22,503 nucleotides of DNA from a virus, in the IMG/VR virus record IMGVR_UViG_3300023184_005763, positions 1 to 22,503 of that record. One strand, 5' to 3'. The notes beneath the pieces were generated by a model, which saw nothing but the letters and a program-made list of their open reading frames with translations, ran no database searches and was not told the origin of the DNA. This document shows positions 7,025-15,628 of this stretch, one piece after another (positions within the stretch are counted from its first letter, which is position 1; each line of letters begins with the position of its first letter). The position numbers were made by a program, and so were the translations under genes.

Positions 7025-7486
7025 TTACCCGAACTTGGTTTGGCAATCCCGAATATAATCAGAGCAAACTGCGTACTGCTCGGTTTGCCTGTATTCGGTT
7101 ACAGATTCCCTAGACAGAACAGGAATAATACAAAGGTTTGTCGGGGTATTAGTTAAGTCGTGAGACCAGATATAACCGTTACTTGTCAAGGTGTACGCAT
7201 CCGATTGGTGGCAAAAGAACCAAAAATCTATTCCGCATTCGGTGATCCACCGCAGTGCTTCCCAATCTTTAATGTGTATCCACAGTTTATGCTTTCGTTC
7301 CATTAACCATTCAGCACTTACTGCGTACTGGCAATAGTCGTGTCCTAGAAACAGTTGACTGTTTTGTAGACGCAAATCAATCTCCACATGTACCCCATAA
7401 TCTATTGCTTGTTGTATGTAACTTAAAGAGTTTTCTTGCTCTGCTATTATTCCATTTAGATTGCCACGATGTGATATATAAATCAT
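7025..7486 (-). CDS. Short GDPD-like phosphodiesterase domain protein
   Basis: A 153-residue protein with the main markers of glycerophosphodiester phosphodiesterases: SHRG at 5-8, QENS at 17-20 (equivalent to PENT), EIDLR at 35-39, GHD at 48-50 and HIKD at 71-74. In the family the His pair acts in acid-base catalysis and the Glu/Asp residues bind a divalent metal. It is much shorter than typical members (about 240-300), so the second half of the barrel seems reduced. Such short forms are known in surface polysaccharide clusters; the substrate here cannot be told. The ATG overlaps the stop of the HAD gene (ATGA) and has AGAGGA six bases upstream. This is the last gene of the island before the terminator. 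Confidence 0.75.
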   Translation of the reverse strand: MIYISHRGNLNGIIAEQENSLSYIQQAIDYGVHVEIDLRLQNSQLFLGHDYCQYAVSAEWLMERKHKLWIHIKDWEALRWITECGIDFWFFCHQSDAYTLTSNGYIWSHDLTNTPTNLCIIPVLSRESVTEYRQTEQYAVCSDYIRDCQTKFG

Positions 7487-7785
7487 TGTAATTCCTCTAT
7501 TCGTATACTACGATCTTCAATAAACAAATCATAGAACGGCTTGTCGCACCGCAATTCGTGGTGGTTTGCACCCCAACTGTTAAGTTGTTGTTTGGTTAAT
7601 GCGTACCAGTCAACACCACTCCTACTGCCTCTTGCCGTCCAATATACAATACGATTTCCTTCACTGTAAAGACGATTAATCTTTGCTATATTTTCGTAGT
7701 TAGGAACAGATTTGCTGTACTCTCTAGGGTTGTCAGGAGTTACACAAATAGTTTCATCAATGTCCACAAATATAGTTTTACCCAT
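7483..7785 (-). CDS. Small HAD-type phosphatase of the capsule/LPS biosynthesis type
   Basis: A 100-residue protein when started at the ATG at 7785, where the protein reads MGKTIFVDIDETIC; the longer frame from 7833 would add 16 residues of no family character inside the preceding gene. HAD motif I is FVDIDET (Asp8 and Asp10), motif II is YWTARG at 48-53, motif III is Lys82 in DKPFYD, and motif IV is IEDRS at 89-93. Asp8 would be the nucleophile that takes the phosphate. There is almost no cap domain, as in small capsule-linked HAD phosphatases acting on phosphosugars or phosphoglycerol. The start overlaps the nucleotidyltransferase stop by eight bases, and the end overlaps the GDPD-like gene by four. 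A role in removing phosphate from a sugar-phosphate intermediate is inferred. Confidence 0.8.
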   Translation of the reverse strand: MGKTIFVDIDETICVTPDNPREYSKSVPNYENIAKINRLYSEGNRIVYWTARGSRSGVDWYALTKQQLNSWGANHHELRCDKPFYDLFIEDRSIRIEELQ

Positions 7786-8610: not shown

Positions 8611-8751
8611 TTATTGTTGAGGATTTTGAACATGGACACGAACAAATTGATTTATGTATCGCTCCATATCTTTTATTTGTTGAACTAGAATTACTGCTTG
8701 GTATTTAAGTTTTTCTACTTCTTTTTTAATTTCTTCTAGTTCGTCCATCAT
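8611..8751 (-). CDS. Small coiled-coil protein, 46 residues
   Basis: A short gene between the kinase/aldolase and nucleotidyltransferase genes. It starts at the ATG at 8751, overlaps the upstream stop (ATGATG with TGA inside), has AAGAG about five bases upstream and ends with TAA at 8611. The product begins MMDELEEIKKEVEKL and continues as a charged, heptad-like helix up to about residue 35, followed by a short tail ending in NPQQ. It is not recognised as any family. The tight fit between two real genes, the good ribosome binding site and the absence of any other explanation for this gap support it. It could serve as an oligomerisation partner or adaptor, which is a guess. Confidence 0.65.
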   Translation of the reverse strand: MMDELEEIKKEVEKLKYQAVILVQQIKDMERYINQFVRVHVQNPQQ

Positions 8752-10172
8752 TTATTCTCTTGCAAAGATTTTCTGATTTTTTCTAACGGCATTGTAACCA
8801 ATTTTTGGATTTCGTCAACCCCTAAAAAATTAGGAGTAAGTGAAGACCCTTGAATAAGGTGAAGTATGTAATTATTGGTCAAGCATAATTCTGTGGGGAA
8901 AACCGCGGCATCAGGAAAAAGAGGAGGGTTCGTTTGAACCAAGTCCTCTTCCGAATCCACAAACGATTCTACATGAGATCCTAACCATCGTTTGCAACGA
9001 TTGTTTATTTCTTCGGTTAAACGGATTGCTTCTTTGCTGGTGCTTCCTCCAACAATAAGTCCGTGATTTTGTAAGAAAAAGATATTAGTATTAGGTTTAG
9101 GAGTTATGCGATTAACCAAATCAACTCCAGGAGTTGTGTACTCCACAAACTCGTAAGACATATCTGCAAAAATAGATTCTATTACAGTTTCAGATTCTTT
9201 GCTACACAACAGAGCATTTAAATGGATAGGATGTGTGTGAATAACCACCCGATTCGGCAAACTCATATGAAATCCTGTTTCCATTGACGGATTATGGTTT
9301 CCTGTTTTCTTTGACGCAGAAATATAACTAGAATAGTCTTGGTCAGAAACAAACTTGGGAAGAGTGGAACTTAGGATATCACACACGCAGAATCCGTGGT
9401 AAAGATTGACATCTGCCATCTTTGCTCCTGAAGACTTAATGATCAATCCTCCTGCTGACTTAACTGAAACATTTCCACCTCTACCTTGAACCAAAGTAGG
9501 TTCTAACGACAACCATTTGCATATATCCATGAATTGGGTTAGAGATTCGTAGAAATCTTTTACAAGAAGCATTAAATCGTCTCCTCTACCAGTAACACAA
9601 ACATACCAAAGAGATATGCTGCAATCTGCATTCTTTGTGAATTTTACTACGATATCTGCATTGTGTCTTTGCGGAGAGATATATTGTCGTTCGTCTACCT
9701 GTCGCCTTCGTATGGTGTCCCTAACTTCATTTTCAGTATATCCTCGTTTCTTAGTGTCTCTTTTTATTTTCCACTCAGTTTTTAACTGCTCGTCGGTGTC
9801 CACATAAATTTTAATATCAGCAAGTTCTAAAGTTGGTTTGTGATAGAGTGCGTGTAACCCTTCATAAATGATGTACGGTTTGGGGGTTAGGGTAACAAGA
9901 GAATCAAATTCTCCTGTGTCATGGTTGTATAAACGACGATCTATGCTACCACCCTTTTTCAGTGTGGTTAGGTGTGCATGACCCATATCTAAATTGTTAG
10001 ATTCAGGATGTAAATGTGTGGTTTTTTTCCAAGCAGGATTGTTTCGTTCCCACCGATGAAGATCGTCTCCACTCAGACACAAAGATTTGTTAGTTCCCAA
10101 AACACTTTGTATAATCTTTGAGATGGTAGTTTTACCAACACCAGAACTTCCTGATATACAAATAAGAGACAT
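8748..10172 (-). CDS. Kinase (uridine kinase/phosphoribulokinase type) fused to class II aldolase
   Basis: A 474-residue two-domain protein. Residues about 1-200 form a P-loop kinase: Walker A GSSGVGKTT at 8-16, SGDDLHRW at 34-41, YEGLHAL at 103-109 (like the EGLHP of phosphoribulokinases) and RRRQVDE at 155-161. Residues about 205-474 form a class II aldolase/adducin domain: GRGGNVSVK at 230-238, IKSSGA at 245-250, catalytic Glu candidate 298 in SMETGFH, Zn ligands His312 and His314 in HTHP, and the third His370 in QNHGLIVGG. The aldolase site therefore looks complete. A kinase that phosphorylates a sugar or aldehyde and an aldolase that cleaves or joins the product would make a channelled pair; the real substrates are unknown. 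The TAA of the upstream gene abuts the ATG directly, with AGGA ahead of it. Confidence 0.88.
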   Translation of the reverse strand: MSLICISGSSGVGKTTISKIIQSVLGTNKSLCLSGDDLHRWERNNPAWKKTTHLHPESNNLDMGHAHLTTLKKGGSIDRRLYNHDTGEFDSLVTLTPKPYIIYEGLHALYHKPTLELADIKIYVDTDEQLKTEWKIKRDTKKRGYTENEVRDTIRRRQVDERQYISPQRHNADIVVKFTKNADCSISLWYVCVTGRGDDLMLLVKDFYESLTQFMDICKWLSLEPTLVQGRGGNVSVKSAGGLIIKSSGAKMADVNLYHGFCVCDILSSTLPKFVSDQDYSSYISASKKTGNHNPSMETGFHMSLPNRVVIHTHPIHLNALLCSKESETVIESIFADMSYEFVEYTTPGVDLVNRITPKPNTNIFFLQNHGLIVGGSTSKEAIRLTEEINNRCKRWLGSHVESFVDSEEDLVQTNPPLFPDAAVFPTELCLTNNYILHLIQGSSLTPNFLGVDEIQKLVTMPLEKIRKSLQENK

Positions 10173-11908: not shown

Positions 11909-12508
11909 TCACAAGTTTACAGTTTTTAATTTTAGTTTCTGAATAATTTCTTTGTATTTTGCGTAATTTGGATGGATATACCAATCTTCAAAAATCCAAC
12001 CCTTGTGTAGATTATCAAGAGTTGCTTCGTGACCAACATTTTCCACCACTCTTATATAACCTTTCACAGACAAGAAGTTGAAAATATTTGACTTTAATTC
12101 TACAACTCCAGGATTTTGTGTGTACAAATTGTGTTCAATGGTGGCAACTTTAAATGTATATCCCGCATCCACGAAAGATTTAACTGCGTTAAAATCCTGA
12201 CCCTCAATATCAATAGACAGATAATCCACAATAGAAGGAACTCCATTCTCTTTAAGAATATCTCCTAATTTTCTTGTTGTGGAATTTCCATCACCAATCA
12301 TTGCAGTTACACAGATACACGATCTGTTTTTTATTCTATTCACATCACCGTCAACAACTATTCCCTTCCACCCTCTCTCTTCAAACAATAAACTATTACT
12401 TTCTGTTTTGGGATCATCACATCCTCCTCCAACATCAACGAAATATCCAATTTCTTGTTTGTTTAAAACAAGGTCAACAAAATCGTCTTGAGATGCTTGT
12501 GAATACAT
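11909..12508 (-). CDS. FkbM-family SAM-dependent methyltransferase (copy 2)
   Basis: A 199-residue methyltransferase. The start YSQASQDDF is typical of FkbM-like proteins. SAM-binding motif I is FVDVGGG at 23-29, followed by LLFEERGWKG and VVDGD at 51-55, and LSIDIEG at 97-103 corresponds to the conserved DIEG/DVEG strand. FkbM enzymes methylate hydroxyl groups of sugars or polyketides; in a glycosyltransferase cluster a sugar O-methyltransferase is the likely role. A second member of the family is at 15008..15628; the two share only the core motifs, so they are not a recent copy. AGAAGG stands six bases before the ATG, and the gap to the upstream gene is two bases. Confidence 0.85.
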   Translation of the reverse strand: MYSQASQDDFVDLVLNKQEIGYFVDVGGGCDDPKTESNSLLFEERGWKGIVVDGDVNRIKNRSCICVTAMIGDGNSTTRKLGDILKENGVPSIVDYLSIDIEGQDFNAVKSFVDAGYTFKVATIEHNLYTQNPGVVELKSNIFNFLSVKGYIRVVENVGHEATLDNLHKGWIFEDWYIHPNYAKYKEIIQKLKLKTVNL

Positions 12509-12510
12509 TT

Positions 12511-13389
12511 TTAACCTTCTGCGTTTATTGCTAGTGCGGCAACAACACTCTTTCTATACGGTTCGGGAACAATATCAATGCGATTTTTATCAATATACTG
12601 AGTATTATTAACAACACCCCCATGTTGATACGAAAATTCTTTAATACACCAAACTTTTTCTGATGGCATAAACATGGTAGAACCTAGCCATCGTATGCAA
12701 TGATCTCCCCATCGCTTATAGAAAATATTTCCTGTGGAATCTAGGTAATTGAAATAGTCTTGGTAATTTGTAGAGCGATAAAAATCCATATCAACTATTT
12801 CAAAATTTGTATAATAAACTTCCAAATTCCATTCAAACTTGCTGTTTAAAACACGAGATTTATTTTCTTCCATGAATTTCTTGGTGGTATCCCATAATCC
12901 TTCGCAGGCCCAAGGAGCATCGGACTCTTCCTTTTCCATAAATGCGTAATGATAATCATTTTCACGCATAACTTTAAATGGATCACGAGTAACCTTTGAC
13001 AAAATGAAAGAGTCAGAATCGAGCCGCATGTACCATTTATATTTGGCTAAAGCAGGATGATTGAATATTTTTCCACCATAGAATCTGCACATATGACGAT
13101 ATCCCATTCTAAATTGGTTTAGAGATGGTGAATACAAATTGGGGTCTTCTGAAATTCCTTCGGGTAAAGCAAATTCAATTCGTTCAAACTTCATGTTTGG
13201 CATAAAACCAAAAGACAGAGAAAATTCTGTCAACAAATTTGCAATGTCAGGTTTAGTTAAATCGTCGTAGAAAACTATAACAGGATAATTTTCTTCTTTA
13301 TTAAAATTGGTATATAGAAAGTTAATACTATGCTTAAATACCCATAGATCACTTTTTCTTGTCATGTATACAATTGCTGCGTTTTCCAT
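12511..13389 (-). CDS. GT15-like (fungal KRE2/MNT1-type) mannosyltransferase homologue, copy 2
   Basis: A 292-residue protein that resembles the catalytic domain of fungal alpha-1,2-mannosyltransferases of CAZy family GT15. The shared order is: RHMCRFYGG at 98-106 (fungal RYxxRFxSG), YMRLDSDSF at 120-128 (fungal YWRxEPD, metal/donor site), TNFEIVDMDFYRS at 194-206 (fungal SNFEIGDLDFFRS, with the proposed catalytic Glu), YFNYLD with YKRWGD at 224-229 (fungal YERWGD) and SYQHGG at 253-258 (fungal YQHTP). It lacks the N-terminal membrane anchor of the yeast enzymes, so it is probably cytoplasmic. The donor may be GDP-mannose by family analogy, which is inference. It lies directly after its paralogue at 13404..14363 and has AAGGA eight bases before the ATG. 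Confidence 0.82.
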   Translation of the reverse strand: MENAAIVYMTRKSDLWVFKHSINFLYTNFNKEENYPVIVFYDDLTKPDIANLLTEFSLSFGFMPNMKFERIEFALPEGISEDPNLYSPSLNQFRMGYRHMCRFYGGKIFNHPALAKYKWYMRLDSDSFILSKVTRDPFKVMRENDYHYAFMEKEESDAPWACEGLWDTTKKFMEENKSRVLNSKFEWNLEVYYTNFEIVDMDFYRSTNYQDYFNYLDSTGNIFYKRWGDHCIRWLGSTMFMPSEKVWCIKEFSYQHGGVVNNTQYIDKNRIDIVPEPYRKSVVAALAINAEG

Positions 13390-13403: not shown

Positions 13404-14363
13404 TTATTCACCCCAATTTAAACCATCAGATCCGCCTGCTCTATATCTATTCAATCCAAACAACAATCTTTCTTTTCTGCTGTAGTGTTGTTCGGGCGAA
13501 CCGTCCACCAAAACTAAAATGTTTTCTGGTATTTCTTTGTTTGGTAGTGCATCAAAGTTTCGTATCCATGCGTTGTGTTGATAAGTAATATCTTTTACTG
13601 CCCAAACTTTAGCAGGATCTAATAGCATCTTTACACCTAACCAATGAATAGGAGCATCTCCCCATCTTTTGTAGAACAGATTTCCAGTTTCGTCTAGTTG
13701 GTCAAAATATGCCATATACTTTTCTCCTCGGAAAAAAGAAAACTTGGCAATTTCAAAATTGGTATAGAATAATCTGCAAGACCATTTGCCGTCAACAATA
13801 CTGTCTTGCAAATCTTTAGACATAGGAATATTGTGAATTTTCATAAACTTTTCAGTTTCTTCCCACAACCCTTGAACCACACTAGGAACTTCTCCGTCTT
13901 CTGTAGACATGTAGGCATATTCTTTGTCGTTGGTTTTCATGTACTCAAAAGGATCATACTCAATAGGAGAGTACAGGTACGAGTCAGAATCCAATCTCCA
14001 ATAATAATCGTATTTCAGCAGGCGAGAGTCTCTATAGATTCCTCCTGAATGAAATCTGCACATATGCCGATACCCCATCCATGCTTCACTCAATGGGATC
14101 GTATACTTGCTTGGATCTTCAGAAATTCCTTCAGGCAACTCAAACTTTAAAATTTCAAATTTGATATTAGGAATAAATCCAACTTTTTTGTGAAGTTCCA
14201 CAAGCAAGTTTGCAATTGTTGGTTTGTCGATATCGTCATGGAATACCACAATAGGATATTCCTTAACATATTTAAAATTTGTACAAAGCATACTCAGACT
14301 ACGATACAGCAAAGGAACATCTCTCATACGAGACATATAAATTATTACAGCATTTTCAGCCAT
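13404..14363 (-). CDS. GT15-like (fungal KRE2/MNT1-type) mannosyltransferase homologue, copy 1
   Basis: A 319-residue paralogue of the next gene. Its matches to fungal GT15 are even clearer: GYRHMCRFHSGG at 97-108, YYWRLDSDSYLYS at 120-132, TNFEIAKFSFFRG at 201-213, YKRWGDAPIHWLG at 231-243 and TYQHNAW at 260-266. The fungal counterparts are RYxxRFHSG, YWRxEPD, SNFEIGDLDFFRS, YERWGDAPVHS and YQHTPY. The DxD-like SDS pair, the Glu in NFEI and the His in YQH, which are conserved in the fungal family, are all kept. The C-terminus has an extra basic tail. The two copies share almost all these motifs but differ widely in between, so the duplication is old. The ATG overlaps the upstream GT2 gene by eight bases, with GAGG eight bases ahead. 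Confidence 0.83.
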   Translation of the reverse strand: MAENAVIIYMSRMRDVPLLYRSLSMLCTNFKYVKEYPIVVFHDDIDKPTIANLLVELHKKVGFIPNIKFEILKFELPEGISEDPSKYTIPLSEAWMGYRHMCRFHSGGIYRDSRLLKYDYYWRLDSDSYLYSPIEYDPFEYMKTNDKEYAYMSTEDGEVPSVVQGLWEETEKFMKIHNIPMSKDLQDSIVDGKWSCRLFYTNFEIAKFSFFRGEKYMAYFDQLDETGNLFYKRWGDAPIHWLGVKMLLDPAKVWAVKDITYQHNAWIRNFDALPNKEIPENILVLVDGSPEQHYSRKERLLFGLNRYRAGGSDGLNWGE

Positions 14364-15027
14364 TGGTTAACCTCACTCTAGACATATTTTCTACGGAAAC
14401 AGGATTGCTTGGTCTTTGTGTTTCAGTTACACTAGGAGACCAGCTATAGTAACACATAACCTTGTCAATTACAAGCTCAGTTTTTGCTAATTTGCAAGCA
14501 TCAAGGGTGAATGCTGCATCTTCTGCCCAATTAGAATCTCCAAAAGAAACTGACTGAGCAATTTCTCGCTTCCACAAACACCACTGCCACGGTGGACGCT
14601 GGCAAGGAACGGTGTTTCCATTCTTATCCACAGACAACTGATCAAAAGGATGTACTTGGTTGTGTGATAGACTTGTCTTTACCAACCAAGTTTTTCCGTG
14701 CATGGTCGCTTCTTGGTTGTAACAAATAACATCAACATCTAAATCCTCAGTTATCTTTTCTCTTAGTGTGGAGATATAATCATCGGATACGGTATCGTCG
14801 TCATCTATTATACACACATATCTTCCTGTTGCCATGCTTAACAGTAAAGATTTCTTTCTGCCAATAGACATCATCTTGTTGTCCATTAAAGACAAAACTT
14901 CAACATCTTTGCCGTCACCAATCTGACCAATTAGTTTAGAATAAAGAGGTTGAAGATACATTCTCATACGACTAGGAATACTAGGAATGCATATGCTTAT
15001 TTTTACATCATTCATGTGTTTGTTCAT
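14356..15027 (-). CDS. GT2-type glycosyltransferase (copy 2)
   Basis: A 223-residue GT-A protein. ISICIPSIPSR at 10-20 is the first strand and nucleotide-binding region, and CIIDDDDTVSDDY at 72-84 contains the metal-binding DxD. MDNKMMSIGRKKSLL at 48-62 precedes it as in the paralogue at 16337..16951; the spacing of these motifs is identical in both proteins, with DDDD at 75-78. A conserved PCQRPPWQWCLW and NWAEDAAF (the ED of the acceptor region) follow. The start at 15027 overlaps the preceding FkbM gene by 20 bases; an internal ATG at 15015 is an equally possible start, since neither has a clear ribosome binding site. The sugar and acceptor are unknown. Confidence 0.85.
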   Translation of the reverse strand: MNKHMNDVKISICIPSIPSRMRMYLQPLYSKLIGQIGDGKDVEVLSLMDNKMMSIGRKKSLLLSMATGRYVCIIDDDDTVSDDYISTLREKITEDLDVDVICYNQEATMHGKTWLVKTSLSHNQVHPFDQLSVDKNGNTVPCQRPPWQWCLWKREIAQSVSFGDSNWAEDAAFTLDACKLAKTELVIDKVMCYYSWSPSVTETQRPSNPVSVENMSRVRLTNG

Positions 15028-15628
15028 GGAATTTTTTATTTATCCAAACCTCGTTGCAACCCAAAATCATATCAAGTTCAAAACCATTCACAGTTAATAT
15101 TTTTCTGCAATCTTCATTATCCTTGTTGGATTCGTGAGTTTCTATAACAATAATATACACTGGAACAGACCAATCAAAAGTTTTAAGAATAGCAAGTTCT
15201 CCACCCTCTACATCAACAATAAACAAATCAACTTTCTTTGGTTTGCCAATTTCTTCAAAAATTTTATAGAAAGGTTTACTTATAACAGTATAATTATCTG
15301 TGGCAACAATAGTTTTATCTATGTGAGTTTCCACAATTCCTCCACCAGAATCTCCACCGTTTCTTGAATTGAAAGTTACTTCTCCTTCAACTTCAGATAC
15401 AGCATACTCTAGTGTTGTGCAGTTCGGGCGATTCTCTTTTAACTTTTTAAATTGATTCTTTTCTGGTTCTATTAACAGACCAGTCCATCCTAAATGATCT
15501 TCAAAAAACTTAGTATTAGAATAGACTATTCCATCCATTGCACCAAGTTCTATAAAGTATCCGTTTTGGTAATTTAAATACTTTTTAAAAAGAACACTGT
15601 CTTCATATTGCTGTGAATAAAATTTCAT
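15008..15628 (-). CDS. FkbM-family SAM-dependent methyltransferase (copy 1)
   Basis: A 206-residue methyltransferase starting KFYSQQYED. Motif I is FIELGAMDG at 25-33, then LLIEPE at 51-56 (acidic end of strand 2, adenosine ribose binding) and FIVDVEGGE at 136-144 (strand 4), followed by VYIIVIETHES. It fits the FkbM group that methylates sugar hydroxyls. GGAGG lies upstream and the ATG overlaps the preceding gene's TGA (ATGA), so translation is coupled. It sits between two glycosyltransferase genes, which supports O-methylation of the same glycan. The end overlaps the next gene by 20 bases. Confidence 0.87.
   Translation of the reverse strand: MKFYSQQYEDSVLFKKYLNYQNGYFIELGAMDGIVYSNTKFFEDHLGWTGLLIEPEKNQFKKLKENRPNCTTLEYAVSEVEGEVTFNSRNGGDSGGGIVETHIDKTIVATDNYTVISKPFYKIFEEIGKPKKVDLFIVDVEGGELAILKTFDWSVPVYIIVIETHESNKDNEDCRKILTVNGFELDMILGCNEVWINKKFHEQTHE

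Follow-up and report, generated by a model that had tools for sequence, protein, structure and literature searches.

The ADP-heptose pathway (HldE/GmhB) employs a kinase, a HAD phosphatase and a nucleotidyltransferase in series on a sugar phosphate. The active-site residues of the aldolase FucA have known roles, and aldolases of the FBP type take substrates of 3S,4R (xylulose) configuration. In the haloarchaeal non-carboxylating pentose bisphosphate pathway, biochemical work has shown that ribulose-1,5-bisphosphate (RuBP) is converted by a HAD phosphatase to ribulose-1-phosphate (Ru1P), which a FucA homologue then cleaves to DHAP and glycolaldehyde (PMC9700705). Phosphoribulokinase (PRK) of M. 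hungatei binds ribulose 5-phosphate (Ru5P) and phosphate through Arg59, Tyr98, His100, His55 and Lys151, and ATP through Arg154 (Kono et al., PMC5241800), and the catalytic dyad of the plant enzyme is Asp/His (PMC9978339).

The window considered here, the whole 22.5 kb stretch of DNA that was analysed, is from a T4-like phage with a DNA polymerase approximately 50% identical to a cyanophage enzyme. It contains a gene joining a PRK-like kinase to a FucA-type aldolase, and bacteria of many phyla share this little-studied enzyme set with phages; no description of the kinase–aldolase pair or its operon was found in the literature searched, which was covered in part.

A kinase–aldolase fusion with both sets of active-site residues intact

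The fusion reading frame (P0001; Table 1) is unbroken from an ATG at 10172 to a TGA at 8750–8748 on the minus strand. Its product matches PRK (PF00485; residues 3–182, E 2e-40) and Aldolase_II (PF00596; residues 214–396, E 6e-20, 72.3 bits against a cut-off of 22.2), and AlphaFold2 (AF2) gives a confident single model (mean pLDDT 93.6, pTM 0.91). In VIA-align comparisons the model matches phosphoribulokinase 9qko (Z 24.6, rmsd 2.0, 201 aligned) and 5b3f (Z 21.2), as well as class II aldolase 3m4r (Z 21.2, rmsd 2.6, 190 aligned) and FucA 2opi (Z 18.4). The first-pass annotation had proposed that both sites are intact, with His312, His314 and His370 as the expected Zn ligands and Glu298 as a candidate catalytic residue. 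These residues align with E. coli FucA H92, H94, H155 and E73 respectively, and no catalytic residue of either domain varies among 38 aligned fusions (the others 35–66% identical to P0001); the proposal is borne out, and the loss of activity residues that would have spoken against it is not seen.

Table 1. Coordinates of the fusion, its domains and neighbours in the window, and of the FBP-aldolase variant in bacterial loci
Feature	Coordinates	Strand	Details
Kinase–aldolase fusion P0001	8748..10172	-	474 aa, one ORF, PF00485 + PF00596
PRK-like kinase domain	9627..10166	-	residues 3–182; P-loop G8–T16, dyad D36/H84
Class II (FucA/RhaD-type) aldolase domain	8985..9533	-	residues 214–396; Glu298, His312, His314, His370
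Small ORF, 46 aa, helical-looking	8611..8751	-	read from sequence; ATG overlaps fusion stop codon
MobA/RmlA-like nucleotidyltransferase, 274 aa	7778..8602	-	PF12804, E 3e-11
Capless HAD phosphatase, ~100 aa (open frame reaches 7833)	7483..7785	-	phrog_1238; TIGR01689 EcbF-BcbF, weak score
Short GDPD-like protein, 153 aa	7025..7486	-	HRGN, EN, ExD and HD motifs conserved
Kinase + FBP-aldolase + epimerase	L206:9828-13709	-	epimerase fused; adjoins tandem nucleotidyltransferase
Kinase + FBP-aldolase + epimerase	L213:9775-13656	+	epimerase fused; adjoins tandem nucleotidyltransferase
Kinase + FBP-aldolase	L211:9071-12618	-	epimerase is a separate gene; adjoins tandem nucleotidyltransferase

The invariant kinase positions include the P-loop (G8..K14), D36, H39, R43, Y82, H84, K135, R138, D139 and R143. 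By sequence alignment and motif position, R43, Y82, H84, H39, K135 and R138 are the equivalents of M. hungatei Arg59, Tyr98, His100, His55, Lys151 and Arg154, and all six are invariant in the phage and bacterial kinases alike; D36 and H84 correspond to the plant Asp/His dyad. E. coli Udk has Tyr at the H39 position and Arg at the K135 position. A profile of the kinase subfamily gives E ~1e-55 against phosphoribulokinases and 1e-21 against uridine kinases, and the NCBIfam scores are 199.9 bits for NF005655 (PRK; residues 3–182), under the curated 236, and 91.4 bits for TIGR00235 (uridine kinase), under its cut-off of 220.3. On these alignments the kinase is nearer phosphoribulokinase than uridine kinase, and a uridine kinase identity was rejected on the substrate residues (H39, K135) and the scores; of the two types that the first-pass annotation had named together, only the phosphoribulokinase type stands. 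The domain shares the P-loop, the Asp/His dyad, all of the published Ru5P and ATP ligands and the fold with PRKs of the Calvin cycle, with that of archaeal M. hungatei and with the 'cyanobacteria-specific PRK' (9qkn/9qko). However, it is only ~190 aa in length compared to ~290–350 aa for PRKs, with the match ending at residue 182 and the C-terminal part replaced by the aldolase, which starts near residues 205–214; it also departs from them in its glycan-gene context, and its activity is putative.

The aldolase resembles FucA, RhaD and the aldolase domain of RhaD-ADH in its fold, its Glu and three His residues and its phosphate-binding motifs (GN.S, SG, PS.E), but differs in being joined to a kinase and in a conserved C-terminal extension of its own, with PD and E..R motifs, running from the end of the domain to residue 474. 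The position of Glu298 is occupied by Glu73 in FucA and by Asp76 in AraD, and an AraD (L-ribulose-5-phosphate 4-epimerase) identity was rejected on this Glu, in place of an Asp76-type metal ligand, and on the scores. The best NCBIfam models are bifunctional aldolase/dehydrogenases, including rhamnulose-1-phosphate ones, and related ketose-1-phosphate aldolases, which suggests that a ketose 1-phosphate would be the expected substrate. All of the scores are far below the curated cut-offs, which were set for longer proteins; for NF053831 (ribulose-1-phosphate aldolase, curated 300 bits) the window domain scores 24.6 and that of cyanophage S-SM2 49.7.

Recurrence in phages and a bacterial counterpart

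Viral contigs were scanned with alignments of the kinase and of the nucleotidyltransferase, and domain HMMs were then run on all loci. Subfamily alignments were required, as a scan of viral contigs with the whole fusion as a single sequence gave no confirmed match; among phage records there is no fused homologue, and the matches are to host-like kinases or separate aldolases. The kinase and the aldolase are present in one ORF on 60 distinct viral contigs (window included), and the fusion is neither an error nor a matter of chance. A frameshift, sequencing error or assembly artefact joining two genes, which was raised at the outset as a danger to this reading, is excluded, because the same fusion occurs on all of these contigs, the frame is continuous and the model is single and confident; nothing was found in favour of such a join. 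Only one copy (L061) is split, and one inserted C is what separates it from its near-identical sister (L062).

The nucleotidyltransferase gene lies immediately downstream of the fusion on 56 of the 60 contigs, with a 4-base gene overlap in 54 of these, and within the fetched stretches a GDPD-like gene is found on 58 and a HAD gene on 41 of the 60. Contigs anchored on the nucleotidyltransferase contain that gene by construction, and as part of the set originates from that scan, the unbiased figure is that of the kinase-anchored fused contigs (L005–L024), where it is present in 19 of 20. In the window itself a 46-aa ORF occupies the interval that separates the fusion from the nucleotidyltransferase, whereas in most relatives no such ORF intervenes and the fusion gene runs straight into an overlap with the nucleotidyltransferase gene. 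Compared to the tandem proteins, the window nucleotidyltransferase is 46% identical to that of S-SM2, 43% to that of Bellamy and 37% to that of an E. coli plasmid. The phage HAD motifs (DxDET, T, K, D) are invariant in the alignment, and the AF2 model of the GDPD-like protein (pLDDT 96.2) has GDPDs as its best Foldseek matches, although weakly (E 4e-3) and over a protein of only 153 aa. The 11 promoter-like sites are no more than chance would give (10.9), and there are five weak terminator-like sites (1.9 expected).

The bacterial comparison started from a plasmid search, which identified homologues in an operon of an E. coli IncR plasmid; homologues are also present at 80 loci in the genomes of bacteria belonging to many phyla. 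Clustering of neighbours gives an operon (L004:6022-13224 and L106–L185) with a tandem nucleotidyltransferase, GtrA, GT2, a GDPD-like protein, a membrane protein–kinase fusion, a HAD phosphatase and the aldolase. The membrane–kinase protein is ~690 aa, with an N-terminal membrane part (a weak GT87 match) and a C-terminal kinase, and in none of the 83 bacterial-type loci is the kinase fused to this aldolase. The phage kinases form one group among the bacterial ones in the tree (SH-aLRT 92), and because the only genuinely unfused phage kinase (L058) is nested within it, the simplest history would be a single fusion event, after which the aldolase was lost once.

Genomes were also sampled by the tandem nucleotidyltransferase alone, which avoids anchoring on the kinase. 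The gene is rare, in ~1% of genomes, and among 11 new cases seven have this kinase and aldolase, two have a variant with an FBP-aldolase (see below), and two have neither within the fetched stretch. The first-pass annotation had pictured kinase and aldolase as supplying a sugar phosphate to the nucleotidyltransferase next door; such sequential chemistry fits their adjoining that gene (the 54 overlaps in phages, 9 of the 11 bacterial cases), but the HAD phosphatase was not foreseen. The composition of the operon points to pentulose chemistry, with the HAD phosphatase probably acting between or beside the kinase and the aldolase.

NF053830 (ribulose-1,5-bisphosphate 5-phosphatase) is matched by each of the 24 HADs tested from the bacterial operons, and for the one member shown in full it leads the other models by 70 bits. 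The operon copy is the best NF053830 match in seven genomes (150–189 bits, against 43–65 for the next where listed). These scores are below the curated cut-off (e.g. 168 versus 330 bits), as are those of the aldolase for NF053831, and neither protein can therefore be given those names. The HAD of the phages is of a different, capless subfamily, and an RuBP phosphatase step in phages is thus an analogy. With its HAD closest to RuBP 5-phosphatase and its FucA-type aldolase, the bacterial operon is like the haloarchaeal pathway; unlike in haloarchaea, the source of RuBP would be a PRK-like kinase in place of ribose-1,5-bisphosphate isomerase, the set is embedded among nucleotidyltransferases and glycosyltransferases, and the phage HAD is of another subfamily.

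A replacement aldolase and the kinase-less cyanophages

In three genomes (G284, G437 and G468) the same nucleotidyltransferase has as its neighbour a P-loop kinase fused to a class II FBP-aldolase of unrelated fold, in which the motifs LDH, GTTHH and LHG are invariant. A ribulose-phosphate 3-epimerase is fused to it in G284 and G468 and is encoded by the next gene in G437. The HAD gene is absent from the three operons, and these genomes have no HAD at the NF053830 level of the operon copies; a search for a phage copy of the variant found none. Because FBP-type aldolases use the xylulose configuration, the epimerase would be needed with an FBP-type but not with a FucA-type aldolase. That the same pair of activities recurs in this setting with an aldolase of unrelated origin, accompanied by an epimerase for pentulose phosphates, is the most telling indication that successive pentulose intermediates may be the substrates of the kinase and the aldolase.

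Each of the two domains can occur without the other. The complete genomes of cyanophages S-SM2 and Bellamy, together with related contigs, have the nucleotidyltransferase, aldolase, HAD and GDPD genes without such a kinase, and one 108-kb contig has the kinase without the aldolase; obligatory channelling from kinase to aldolase is unlikely for this reason. Photosystem genes (psbA) are present on each of the six kinase-less contigs that are 67 kb or longer, and on none of 15 kinase-bearing ones, which is one arrangement in 54,264 if contigs are independent, which they are not. The correlation fits a kinase product that is already made by a photosynthetic, PRK-bearing host, but it may reflect no more than the cyanophages being a single clade. 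The simple expectation that PRK in the host makes a module kinase superfluous does not hold, since cyanobacterial operons retain the kinase although the host has PRK. PfkB/HldE-type kinases were considered as stand-ins for the missing kinase and are present in some aldolase-only cyanophages, but not all, and were therefore not accepted in that role.

A candidate pentulose bisphosphate route and its alternatives

The explanation that we favour, with moderate confidence, is a route that runs from Ru5P through RuBP and Ru1P to DHAP and glycolaldehyde and would feed into a building block activated with a nucleotide. The N-terminal PRK-like kinase would phosphorylate a pentulose 5-phosphate, most likely Ru5P, at C1 to give RuBP; the operon HAD would convert this to Ru1P (in the phages, by analogy); and the C-terminal zinc class II aldolase would cleave the ketose 1-phosphate between C3 and C4 to DHAP and glycolaldehyde. 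The set would feed a phage-encoded glycan pathway, with the adjacent nucleotidyltransferase making the activated precursor, and the route may be likened to the second half of the haloarchaeal pathway. This explanation starts from the fusion, the intact active-site residues, the operon membership, the bacterial counterpart and the non-homologous epimerase-bearing replacement; the substrate, the order and direction of the reactions, the role of the GDPD-like protein and the final product are the parts that we infer. In its favour are the conserved Ru5P ligands of the kinase, the Glu and the ketose-1-phosphate models of the aldolase, the NF053830 matches of the bacterial HADs, the epimerase-bearing variant and the presence of psbA on kinase-less contigs, although this last point may be a matter of clade. 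Against it, the NF053830 and NF053831 scores fall short of their cut-offs, the phage HAD is of another subfamily, cyanobacterial operons retain the kinase, cleavage leaves the nucleotidyltransferases and the GDPD-like protein unexplained, and the phage lineage of L058 lacks the aldolase.

A rival reading is modelled on ADP-heptose synthesis, which by analogy has the same series of kinase, HAD phosphatase and nucleotidyltransferase, although the kinase and nucleotidyltransferase are of other families there and the aldolase and GDPD-like protein are additional here. In such an order the aldolase would condense DHAP with a short aldehyde or remodel a sugar phosphate, the kinase would add a second phosphate, the HAD would remove the first, and the nucleotidyltransferase would form an NDP-sugar. 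The adjacency of the three genes in both phages and bacteria is consistent with this, and the bacterial GT2, GtrA and membrane part suggest a polyprenyl-linked sugar donor. We nonetheless regard it as rather improbable, as the HAD most resembles RuBP 5-phosphatase, the epimerase that accompanies the FBP-aldolase in the variant suggests a route fed by pentulose phosphates, and an aldose-making isomerase was not seen.

An unlikely alternative dispenses with the HAD altogether, with the fusion making RuBP from Ru5P and splitting it directly to DHAP and glycolaldehyde phosphate, and the HAD acting elsewhere. The joining of kinase and aldolase without the HAD would be accounted for, as would the 19 of 60 fused contigs in which the model found no HAD gene (which may be missed or diverged), and the FBP-type aldolases of the variant, whose operons have no HAD, normally take bisphosphates; FucA-type aldolases, however, are known on ketose 1-monophosphates, and the bacterial HAD resembles an RuBP phosphatase. 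It is more doubtful still that the kinase and aldolase act in separate steps, with co-expression or assembly as the sole reason for their fusion. Either domain can be absent from otherwise similar phage modules, and bacteria join the kinase to a membrane protein while the aldolase stays separate, but the independent fusion of the kinase to an aldolase of unrelated fold in the same operon setting argues otherwise.

Extending the favoured Ru5P–RuBP–Ru1P route, we tentatively suggest, as a possibility to which we give less weight than to the route itself, that an unrecognised non-Calvin RuBP module (a PRK-like kinase, an RuBP phosphatase and a Ru1P or bisphosphate aldolase), common to phages and many bacteria, supplies a small activated glycan unit, and that the viral genome provides a phosphoribulokinase, fused to the aldolase, except where the host is photosynthetic and already makes RuBP. 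If so, RuBP chemistry, usually associated with carbon fixation or nucleotide salvage, would also serve surface-glycan building and be carried by viruses, and the 'uridine kinase', 'phosphoheptose isomerase' and hypothetical labels in phage and plasmid records would be accounted for. The cyanophages, lacking a kinase that their hosts already have, suggest encoded metabolism matched to the host, and the multi-phylum operon gains testable substrates.

The phage glycan cluster in the window has other features. Two neighbouring genes (12511-13389 and 13404-14363, both minus strand) encode related-looking proteins, the first of which matches glycolipid 2-alpha-mannosyltransferase (GT15, PF01793, E 2e-44), whose family is known chiefly from fungi. 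Two FkbM-type methyltransferases (11909-12508 and 15008-15628, minus strand) are also encoded in the cluster, between the fusion and a UvsX-like gene. Elsewhere, one of the contigs with the kinase–aldolase fusion (L054, IMGVR_UViG_3300009181_000033) is of jumbo size at 297,894 bases.
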